Positions 8,709-17,489 of a stretch of 36,284 nucleotides of DNA are shown here, piece after piece. The position numbers were made by a program, and so were the translations under genes. Below the pieces are notes generated by a model. The model did not search any database, was not told where the DNA came from, and saw only the letters and a list, made by a program, of their open reading frames with translations. The stretch is taken from the NCBI GenBank assembly GCA_016201135.1, contig JACQDK010000020.1, positions 1-36,284 of the forward strand, read 5' to 3'. Source of the DNA: Actinomycetota bacterium. GTDB taxonomy: Bacteria; Actinomycetota; UBA4738; HRBIN12. Numbering within the stretch: position 1 is the first letter of the stretch; every line of letters begins with the position of its first letter.

Positions 8709-10126
8709 CGCCTCCTTTCGACGCCCACCGTAACCGGGGCGTGTGAAGGGGCCATGAAGGGGGCGCGTTCCCCGGATGAAGCCAGCGGCAGGAGAACCGT
8801 GAACGTCGTGCCCTGCTGCAGTTCGCTCGCGACCTCGATGTCGCCTCGGTGGGCCCGGACCAGTTCGCGGGCGACGGTGAGGCCGATCCCCGATCCGCCG
8901 GCGCGGGCGCCGCGGCCCCGGAAGAACCGGTCGAACACCTGCTGGAGCTCGTCGGCGGGGATACCCGGGCCGGTGTCGGAGACGCGGATGACGGCGTTGT
9001 CTCCCTCCCGGCGAAGGGTGAGGTCGACCTCACCACCCGGCGGGGTGAACTTCAGCGCATTCGAGAGCAGGTTCGCGACGACCTGCCGGATCCGTGTGGG
9101 GTCCGCCTGGACGGCGACATCGGAGAGATAGGCGGCGAGCCGCACGTCCTCGGCCTCGTACGGGCCCGCGAACTCCCGTGCGGCGCCTTCGAGCAGGGGC
9201 CGAAGGTCGACCGGCTGGCGGACGAGCGAGAACCTGGCGGCATCGGCCGAGGCGAGGGTCTCGAGGTCGGCGACGAGCCGGGACAGCCGGAGCGTCTCCT
9301 CGTGCAGGGAGGCCAGGGCGGGTGACGTCGGCTCGACCACGCCATCTTGTATCCCCTCGATCTGGGTGCGGAGGATCGTGAGGGGCGTGCGCAGCTCGTG
9401 TGCGACGTCGGCCGCGAACTCCCTCCGCAGCCGGTCCTCCTCCTCGATCGTGTCGGCCAGCGTGTTGAACGCTCTTGCCATCTCGCCGAACTCGTCTGGA
9501 CCCTCGGACTCGACCCGTTCCGAGCGGTCGCCGAGCGCCAGCGCACGGGCCGTCTTCGTCAGCTCTCGAGCCGGCGCCGTCGCGCGGCGGGCGAGCACGA
9601 TCCCCAGTGCCAGAGCCACGAAACCGGCGAGGATCCCCCCCAAGAGCAGCAGCCGGTTCACCGAGGAACGGAACGCGACGTCCTGAGGGAGGAGTCCGGG
9701 CTGGGGGAGCCGGATGACCGCCGTGCCAACGACCGAGCCATCCACCCGGATCGGGAGCCGCTGCTCGGGCCCGAGCGGCCCGCTTCCCATCATCTGACGG
9801 TGCAGCGCCGCCATCTGGCCGCTCACCCCGGCGGAGGCGTCCCAGACCGTCTTGCCCTGTGCGTCGACGACCCGGACCGCCCCACCGTCCATCAGCGCGA
9901 GGGACTGGAGCGACTCGAGGTCGGCCGCGCTCCAGCCGTCCGCCCGCCGGTACGAGTCGGCGAGCCCCGCGACGAGCTGCCGCTCCCTCGCGTCCTGCTG
10001 CTCGTGCAGGTAGGACGCGAACGTGGTGCCGAACTCGACGTTCACCAGGATCGCGGTGAGCGCTGCCGCCGCGATCCCGACGCCGGCGAAGGCCGCGGCC
10101 AACCGAAGCGCATAGGATCTACGCAT
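8705..10126 (-). CDS. HAMP-domain sensor histidine kinase (BaeS/OmpR-partner type)
   Basis: Two TMs, HAMP, FAADVAHELRTPLTILRTQIEG H-box, NLLSNALKFTPPGGEV N-box, DTGPGIPADEL, GSGIGLTVARELV. Confidence 0.93.
   Translation of the reverse strand: MRRSYALRLAAAFAGVGIAAAALTAILVNVEFGTTFASYLHEQQDARERQLVAGLADSYRRADGWSAADLESLQSLALMDGGAVRVVDAQGKTVWDASAGVSGQMAALHRQMMGSGPLGPEQRLPIRVDGSVVGTAVIRLPQPGLLPQDVAFRSSVNRLLLLGGILAGFVALALGIVLARRATAPARELTKTARALALGDRSERVESEGPDEFGEMARAFNTLADTIEEEDRLRREFAADVAHELRTPLTILRTQIEGIQDGVVEPTSPALASLHEETLRLSRLVADLETLASADAARFSLVRQPVDLRPLLEGAAREFAGPYEAEDVRLAAYLSDVAVQADPTRIRQVVANLLSNALKFTPPGGEVDLTLRREGDNAVIRVSDTGPGIPADELQQVFDRFFRGRGARAGGSGIGLTVARELVRAHRGDIEVASELQQGTTFTVLLPLASSGERAPFMAPSHAPVTVGVERRR
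8743..8759 (-). promoter_or_regulatory. Direct-repeat box A (minus strand CTTCAT-GGCCC-CTTCAC) with putative -10 TACGGT 10 nt downstream
   Basis: Two CTTCA half-sites 11 bp apart, inside the 3' end of the kinase gene, upstream of the Met-rich gene (start 8708). Confidence 0.5.
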
Positions 10127-10624
10127 CCGGCTTCATCCCGAACTTGTACCCGACCCCAGTGACGGTGAGGACGAACCGAGGGTGTCTCGGGTCCTCGCCG
10201 AGCTTCCGCCGCAGGTTCTTCACGTGGGCGTCGATGGTCCGGTCGTACCCCTCGTAGTCGTACCCCTGGACCTTGGTGATCAGCTCGAAGCGGGAGAACA
10301 CGCGACCCGGGTGGGCAGCGAGGCTGTAGAGGAGATCGAAAGGCGGAGGCCGGTGACCCGGTCGTCCTCCGCGGCCTTGGCGGTTAGCATGATGATCGGC
10401 ACGCTGGAGTGGCTTCGAACCGCCCTGGCGATCTCCTCCCCGCTGAGATCGGGGAGCATGAGGTCGAGCACTATTAGGTCTGGGTTCGCGCGCTCCAGGG
10501 TCTCGAGAGCTCGCTGCCCAGTCTCCGCGACGAGCACCGCATAGCCTTCCCGCTCGAGGTAGGAGCGAACCAGGTCCCTGATCTTGCGCTCGTCGTCGAC
10601 GACGAGGATGGTTGCCGTGCCCAT
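10119..10624 (-). pseudogene. OmpR-family response regulator disrupted by an internal deletion plus frameshift
   Basis: Receiver MGTATILVVDDERKIRDLVRSYL...LIVLDLMLPDLSGEE...SSVPIIMLTAKAAEDDRVTGLRL is followed directly, out of frame, by wHTH sequence FDLLYSLAAHPGRVFSRFELITKVQGYDYEGYDRTIDAHVKNLRRKLGEDPRHPRFVLTVTGVGYKFGMKPDA. Junction near 10341. Confidence 0.85.
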
Positions 10625-10695
10625 GTTGCGTCCCCCACCACAGTCTGCCGTAACACGAGCTTCACGGCGACCCGAAGAGGCGATCAGGGTCCTTC

Positions 10696-10721
10696 GCCCT
10701 TGGCCATCCGAGTCCAAGGGC
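10696..10721. terminator. Terminator-like hairpin downstream of the redoxin operon
   Basis: GCCCTTGG-10 nt-CCAAGGGC, 8-bp perfect stem, 23 nt past the redoxin stop. Confidence 0.55.
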
Positions 10722-10743
10722 CCTCCGGGAACCGGGCCGCTGC

Positions 10744-11436
10744 TCAAGAGAGGTAGGGGCGGATGGCCGACATGATCTCGGAGGTCGAGGCGTACATCGA
10801 CGAGTACTCCTTCGCCCAGCGGATCCGCCCGGAGGCGTCGATGAAGACGAGACCGTGTCCGGGCAGGTCCGCGTGCATGCCCTTGCCGAGCATCCCGTAC
10901 TCCTTCGACACCGCGCCACCTTCGTCGATCAGGAACGGCGTCGTGATGCCGAAGCGCGTCATCTCGCTCCGGACCTGGTCCGCCGGGTTCATGACGATCG
11001 GCAGGACGGTGATGCCGGCGTCCCGGAGCTCGCCTCCGTTCTTCTCGAGCTCCACCATCTGGTAGAAGCAGGCGTCACACCCGACTCCCTCGCTGAAGTA
11101 GAGGAGGACGTTCTCGCCTCGGTAGTCGGAGAGCGAGACGGTCGATCCGCTCGTGGAGGCGAGCGAGAACGGCGGGGCCATCTTGCCCGCGAGGGCCTCA
11201 CCGCCGCCCGAGCTGCGGTTCCCGAAGAAGAGCATCGCTCCGACCACGACCACGACCCCGACGACGGCGACCTGACCCCAGGACGGGTCGAAGCTCCTAC
11301 GGCGCCGGCGCTTCGGTCCTGGCTTCGGCTTCCTGGGAGGGCTCTGATCCGTCGCCGCAACAGGCGTGTGGGACGGCGGGCTCGGACGCGTCTTCCCGCG
11401 ATGCCGCTGCGACGACCGCCTGGTCTTCGTGCTCAT
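10744..11436 (-). CDS. Membrane-anchored peroxiredoxin/redoxin-family protein
   Basis: Basic N-terminus plus one TM (WGQVAVVGVVVVVGAMLFF), thioredoxin-like fold region with GVGCDACFYQ; RBS AAGGAGGGAGTCACC-ATG. Confidence 0.82.
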   Translation of the reverse strand: MSTKTRRSSQRHRGKTRPSPPSHTPVAATDQSPPRKPKPGPKRRRRRSFDPSWGQVAVVGVVVVVGAMLFFGNRSSGGGEALAGKMAPPFSLASTSGSTVSLSDYRGENVLLYFSEGVGCDACFYQMVELEKNGGELRDAGITVLPIVMNPADQVRSEMTRFGITTPFLIDEGGAVSKEYGMLGKGMHADLPGHGLVFIDASGRIRWAKEYSSMYASTSEIMSAIRPYLS

Positions 11437-16913: not shown

Positions 16914-17032
16914 GTCTGTTCCCCTCACGAGAACTCCCGCGGCCTGAGTATCCGTCGGTTCCTGTGCGCGAGCTATGGCCGGAGGCCGGAACGAGGACCG
17001 CGCGCCTGGAGTCGCGCGTGCGAGAAAGTCGT

Positions 17033-17134
17033 TCATCGCGCGAGGAGCAGCTTCGAAGGGAAGAAGAGCCCGCCGATCACGATCGCGGCTCCCACCACGA
17101 GGAGCACCCCGACGAGGAGCAGCGTTCCGATCAT
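17033..17134 (-). CDS. 33-aa single-TM small protein
   Basis: [37 protein letters not shown] overlap with upstream ORF; RBS AAGGAAGGGGGCCAGCG-ATG. Hidden inside the track ORF 17033..17560. Confidence 0.65.
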
Positions 17135-17436
17135 CGCTGGCCCCCTTCCTTCCGGGCTTCCGGCTCGTCGGGGTTGGTGGAAGCCGGCCCGTGCCCTGAA
17201 CCATGGACATCGGCGCGCGTCCCGGGCGAGCCTCCCGCGCCATGCCCGTCTCCGCCGCCGTGCATGCTCATCATGAGCAGGGGGCAGAGAAGCAGGACGC
17301 CCACGTAGAGAAGCCCGACGAGAGGAACTCCCAGCGCAACGAGGGCCACCACCGCCGATCCGGCAGCGACCACCCACGTCGGCCTGATCTTCATTCCGCC
17401 CCTCGTCTGGTGGTCCATCGCGCCCTCCTCGGACAC
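17131..17436 (-). CDS. DUF2933-like small membrane protein, His/Gly-rich C-terminus
   Basis: [54 protein letters not shown]. Confidence 0.7.
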
Positions 17437-17472
17437 CCTTCCTTTCGATACACGTCACGCTAGGCGCCTGAT

Positions 17473-17489
17473 GTGAAGCGGTGTTGAAG
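17473..17489 (-). promoter_or_regulatory. Direct-repeat box C (minus strand CTTCAA-CACCG-CTTCAC) with putative -10 TAGCGT 10 nt downstream
   Basis: Same architecture as box A; upstream of the DUF2933-like/small TM/ATPase operon. Confidence 0.5.

Follow-up and report, generated by a model that had tools for sequence, protein, structure and literature searches.

In the pho boxes of Escherichia coli, tandem direct repeats with an 11-bp period replace the -35 element, and the -10 hexamer is located about 10 nt downstream. The locus described here, which was analysed as a window of 36,284 nucleotides from an Actinomycetota bacterium, resembles the PhoB system in repeat period, apparent replacement of the -35 element and distance to the -10, whereas half-site sequence, presumed signal and targets are different. 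The BaeSR, CusRS, CopRS and AgrRS systems of Proteobacteria likewise combine an envelope-sensing kinase with an OmpR-family response regulator and control metal or efflux targets. However, the operator of the silver-responsive regulator AgrR is a 6-4-6 inverted repeat (PMC7380067), in contrast to the 11-bp direct repeat present here. In Corynebacterium glutamicum, the linked copRS genes encode an OmpR-type regulator that acts at an 11-bp direct repeat, and the targets, among which are genes for a copper ATPase, for secreted metal proteins and for a TlpA thioredoxin (PMC3140484), are similar to those at our locus. The proven CopR site reads TGAAGATTTgaTGAAGATTT (PMC3140484), and the reverse complement of its operator core TGAAGATTTnnTGAAGATTT is CTTCA-N6-CTTCA, which is identical to the core found here. 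C. glutamicum possesses one CopR site per genome, which serves two divergent units and is a long way from where the start of cg3286 was mapped (PMC3140484), whereas here several co-oriented sites occur per genome, each 10 nt away from a -10. Finally, copper clusters of Alteromonas with the order DUF2933-cupredoxin-copA-isoprenylcysteine methyltransferase (PMC8478169) also place DUF2933 beside a copper P-type ATPase, but these clusters list a MerR-type regulator (PMC8478169), as opposed to the two-component box reported below. As the same box fronts the same genes beside the same sensor-regulator pair in related bacteria, the repeats represent a real control circuit that these bacteria have in common and that most likely responds to copper stress.

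Direct repeats and their distance to the -10 hexamer

A sequence-only reading of the window had reported four CTTCAC-type direct repeats on the minus strand. All four sites (Table 1) were recovered with an exact 11-bp period, and the pattern YTTCAN6CTTCAC has four matches in the window as compared to a mean of 0.01 and a maximum of one in 100 dinucleotide shuffles. The density of the motif is not typical of the genome: CTTCAN6CTTCAC occurs four times in the 2.24 Mb of the own genome (G000), three times inside the window, and the reversed control pattern has no occurrence across the same 2.24 Mb. The genome has three WhiB matches, whereas among 14 controls C. glutamicum alone gave one, and the assignment to Actinomycetota was inferred from this. 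Box A is contained in the terminal codons of the kinase gene, and boxes B and C are intergenic.

Table 1. Coordinates of boxes, hexamers and genes in the window
Feature	Position	Strand	Remarks
Box A, CTTCATGGCCCCTTCAC	8743-8759	-	promoter of Met-rich/SHOCT genes
Box B, CTTCACCGATCCTTCAC	12662-12678	-	promoter of Grx-CcdA-redoxin genes
Box C, CTTCAACACCGCTTCAC	17473-17489	-	promoter of DUF2933/P-type ATPase genes
Site D, TTTCACGCAGCCTTCAC	13692-13708	-	doubtful
-10-like TACGGT	8727-8732	-	10 nt after box A
-10-like GAAGCT	12646-12651	-	10 nt after box B
-10-like TAGCGT	17457-17462	-	10 nt after box C
CsoR-operator-like palindrome, ATACCCTACCTGGGTAT	13659-13675		just after site D; resembles csoR promoter at G000:C44
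SHOCT-type small membrane protein	8091-8327	-	below Pfam cut-off
Met-rich secreted protein	8334-8708	-	target of box A
BaeS-like sensor histidine kinase	8705-10126	-	conserved extracytoplasmic HxxMM
OmpR-family response regulator	10119-10624	-	190-bp frameshifting deletion relative to G004
AhpC/TSA-type redoxin	10744-11436	-	N-terminal membrane segment predicted, read from sequence
CcdA/DsbD-type transmembrane thiol-disulfide carrier	11297-12316	-	
Glutaredoxin-like protein	12317-12568	-	first gene after box B
P1B-type ATPase ORF	14508-17243	-	CPD replaces CPC; true start probably inside the ORF
DUF2933 protein	17131-17436	-	first gene after box C

At boxes A and C, the -10-like hexamers lie exactly 10 nt past the last CTTCAC, just as first read, and box B, for which no -10 had been given, has GAAGCT at the same spacing. 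A GA-type hexamer is also found at the boxes of the Grx operons in G001, G004 and G005. To place these hexamers in context, we used 81 genomes, nine of which carry an ortholog of the kinase at 8705-10126, defined by a match at E<1e-80. In kinase-bearing genomes, NANNNT follows at spacing 10 in 14 of the 17 exact boxes listed, but at any given spacing of 4-9 or 11-19 in none or one of the same 17; in genomes without a kinase ortholog, only 6 of 35 listed boxes have NANNNT at spacing 10 (Fisher 9e-6), the box list being incomplete for some genomes and many genomes being represented by one locus each. Two hallmarks of an OmpR/PhoB-type activator regulon are found, namely direct repeats in tandem with a period of about 11 bp and a fixed short spacing to the -10, and the case for boxes A, B and C as promoter elements is convincing. 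Because the 10-nt spacing is fixed, it lends strong support to the earlier proposal that the repeat replaces the -35 as at OmpR/PhoB-type promoters, with binding of the regulator being predicted from this geometry.

The claim of a four-copy regulon stood for A, B and C and fell for D, leaving three copies and one doubtful site. Site D is antisense to lgt, pointing into its 3' end, and has an imperfect counterpart beyond lgt in G004, and no counterpart was seen in G005. It was rejected as a regulon member since it lacks NANNNT at spacing 10 as well as a clear downstream gene. Apart from the palindrome next to site D, a second CsoR-operator-like palindrome at ~13804-13820 precedes a DoxX-like gene (13833-14474), and it also resembles the csoR promoter at G000:C44.

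Conservation of the composite element and association with one regulator clade

Computation further reveals that motif and spacing are conserved and associated with one clade of regulator-kinase pairs. Across Actinomycetota, orthologous genes are preceded by the composite of the 17-bp box, exactly 10 nt and NANNNT. Thus, neither of the two outcomes that the sequence-only reading had named as refuting the regulon, a similar motif density throughout the genome or a lack of conservation upstream of orthologs, was observed. The composite is present in the 3'-terminal part of the kinase gene, ~20 nt before the gene for the Met-rich secreted protein, in G001, G004, G005, G017 and G027, and it precedes the Met-rich gene in G015 as well as on a Streptomyces plasmid, where CTTCACGGATCCTTCAC-N10-TAGCGT lies ahead of this gene in a csoR-HMA protein-P-ATPase-RR-HK cluster with DUF2933 and lgt nearby. 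The composite likewise precedes the Grx-CcdA-redoxin genes in four genomes (G001, G004, G005 and G035), with a DUF2933-like gene coming first in G004 and G005, as well as DUF2933 in G001, SHOCT in G035 and SHOCT-csoR in G001. The minus-strand units that A, B and C had been noted to precede in the window reappear as targets in relatives. In G011, boxes are located before csoR and before a P-type ATPase gene, with the -10 overlapping a CsoR-like palindrome, and G049 harbours degenerate versions of the box. Because box A is coding and read in the same frame in the orthologs, part of its conservation may be at the protein level; this context does not apply to boxes B and C or to the boxes that relatives carry at Grx and SHOCT genes and on plasmids.

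A 33-bp model of the composite, which uses sequence only and was trained mostly on kinase-bearing genomes, gave 21 matches at E<=0.01 when all 81 genomes were searched. The nine genomes with the kinase account for 18 of these matches; among matches that were not used for training, 6 of 9 fall into these genomes (binomial 1.2e-4). At a threshold of E<=1e-100, CcdA orthologs were detected in six genomes, all of which carry the kinase (P=2.6e-7). Six further genomes (G003, G013, G018, G045, G059 and G079) have no kinase ortholog, yet keep NANNNT at spacing 10, and in all six the box is followed at a distance of ~1-2 kb by a different histidine kinase gene that the kinase search had also matched. 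Paralogous RR-HK operons with the same gene order and the same box upstream were also observed at L080, L167, L078 and L079, and in some of them the first gene encodes a small Gly/Phe-rich membrane protein.

The boxes appear to belong to the pair of BaeS-like kinase and OmpR-type regulator that is encoded in the cluster. A linked OmpR-family regulator with winged-helix output is intact in G001, G004, G005, G027, G035 and G049, and the G005 regulator shares 72-80% identity with the linked regulators of relatives. In the window, the gene is broken: residues 1-98 and 149-232 remain recognisable, and the deletion removes the last part of the receiver and the first part of the winged helix. An intact ortholog was not found elsewhere in the 90%-complete assembly, where the next best regulator reaches 51%. 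Either the circuit was recently broken in the population or the contig is misassembled. In the tree, the orthologs of the window regulator form one clade (97/96) together with the box-adjacent regulators of G018, G007, G013, G079, G045, G059 and plasmids of Rubrobacter marinus and Streptomyces, and the other OmpR-family regulators of G000 are placed outside. As this tree mixes families and includes a Streptomyces plasmid, it suggests that the system may have moved horizontally.

Plasmids of C. comes and Rothia carry a copRS-like pair together with a multicopper oxidase and a copper ATPase, and have CTTCA-N6-CTTCA upstream of the regulator gene, that is in the copR promoters. However, their CopR-type regulators branch separately and are not part of the box-associated clade, at only ~50% identity. 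Therefore, equating the system with the CopRS of C. glutamicum was rejected, with CopR orthology being judged from the C. comes and Rothia regulators and not from the C. glutamicum protein itself.

The proposed circuit, its signal and competing readings

We consider it highly probable that A, B and C constitute one regulon, controlled by a PhoB-like activator that would replace the -35 and likely answer copper or silver. The HxxMM segment of the kinase would detect a soft metal on the outer side of the membrane, with Cu(I) or Ag(I) as the best candidates: the extracytoplasmic part contains HR-x-MMG in most orthologs and HDHMLM in the C. comes kinase, and these residues are soft-metal ligands. 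The C. comes kinase is related to the CopRS sensor and has an H/M-rich sensor loop. Once phosphorylated, the regulator, whose orthologs in relatives are intact, would bind the two CTTCAC half-sites as a dimer; spaced by 11 bp, that is one helical turn, these are expected to face the same side of the DNA. The bound regulator would substitute for the missing -35, and because it stands in for this element, RNA polymerase should require only the -10 at its fixed distance. The predicted output comprises a Met-rich secreted metal-binding protein and the SHOCT protein from box A, thiol repair by glutaredoxin, CcdA and redoxin from box B, and DUF2933 along with the metal P-type ATPase from box C. Box B probably also drives the RR-HK genes, which would amount to autoregulation.

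Three observations speak against copper or silver: the best NCBIfam match of the kinase is BaeS/SmeS, its score of 203.6 bits for the heavy-metal sensor kinase model TIGR01386 (CusS/CopS) is below the curated cut-off of 292.55 bits, and the Corynebacterium-type CopR falls outside the clade. On balance, copper or silver is inferred to be the likely signal. The regulon and its architecture could be real and nonetheless respond to general envelope or thiol stress as in BaeSR, with the metal genes being part of the output. The BaeS/SmeS match points in this direction, as do the abundance of thiol-redox genes among the targets and the boxes of paralogous clade members beside small membrane proteins without evident metal link. 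However, CsoR, P1B-ATPase, Met-rich protein and DUF2933 are all among the targets, CsoR-type operators flank the G011 boxes, the HxxMM segment is conserved and the core matches the proven site of a copper regulator, making the stress signal quite unlikely.

It is rather unlikely, albeit conceivable given the frameshifting deletion in the cognate regulator gene and the lack of an intact ortholog in the assembly, that the boxes of the own genome have become relics or are used by a paralogous regulator. The kinase ORF is intact, as are the boxes and their -10s, and this is consistent with either a recent event or an error in the metagenome assembly. The paralog with the highest identity lies outside the box-associated clade, and the genome is only 90% complete. 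That the repeats reflect chance or codon-driven similarity is extremely improbable: box A lies in coding sequence and CTTCA-type words are scattered in other genomes, but such sites were hardly expected in the window, two of the three boxes are intergenic, the -10 spacing is fixed, and the element is conserved at unlinked loci and on plasmids.

Returning to the metal-responsive circuit, we lean slightly towards viewing it as an undescribed, horizontally moving envelope-metal regulon of Actinobacteria, in which a single regulator clade, with CTTCAC-N5-CTTCAC-N10-TANNNT as a promoter class of its own, brings together the Grx-CcdA-redoxin relay, a CPD-type P-ATPase, DUF2933, SHOCT and the Met-rich secreted protein, and in which some members co-control csoR/copA promoters that also bear CsoR operators. 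If this holds true, extracytoplasmic and cytoplasmic sensing would converge on one promoter in some members. With the proposed circuit, the orphan Met-rich, SHOCT and DUF2933 small proteins gain a regulator, a predicted binding site and a likely function, and a connection emerges in uncultured Actinomycetota between the export of metals and transmembrane thiol repair by Grx-CcdA-redoxin. The 33-bp composite is so specific that regulon members can be predicted from sequence alone, and it offers a direct test of the link between copper and thiols.

Further candidate members and neighbouring genes

Two additional mismatch-free composites are present in the own genome. The one at position 4078 of G000:C20 precedes a gene for a SHOCT-type small membrane protein, which is included in the regulon despite being unlinked. 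The other one (G000:C72, L077, 2652-2684) has GATGTT at spacing 10 and lies ~200 bp before genes for a Tat-signal iron-sulfur protein/NrfD-like pair; this operon is perhaps also a member. A homologous pair is encoded on the Grx-CcdA contig of G005 (L168, 6142-8110).

At the edge of the window (309-911), a secreted protein with a cupredoxin domain is encoded that is weakly similar to nitrosocyanin/NosZ; a box was not found upstream of this gene. The P1B-type ATPase carries CPD rather than CPC or CPH as TM6 motif, and its HMA domain is devoid of CxxC. CPD is also present in the G001 ATPase (L170, 78% identical) and in an ATPase encoded beside csoR in G010 (L123), and this type possibly has a distinct transport specificity. 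On the Rubrobacter marinus plasmid (L106, 3850-3877 and 4906-4933), three successive 11-bp CTTCAC-type units precede the DUF4396 and DUF305 genes, and these arrays are followed by TAAGCT and TACCTT at spacing 10.
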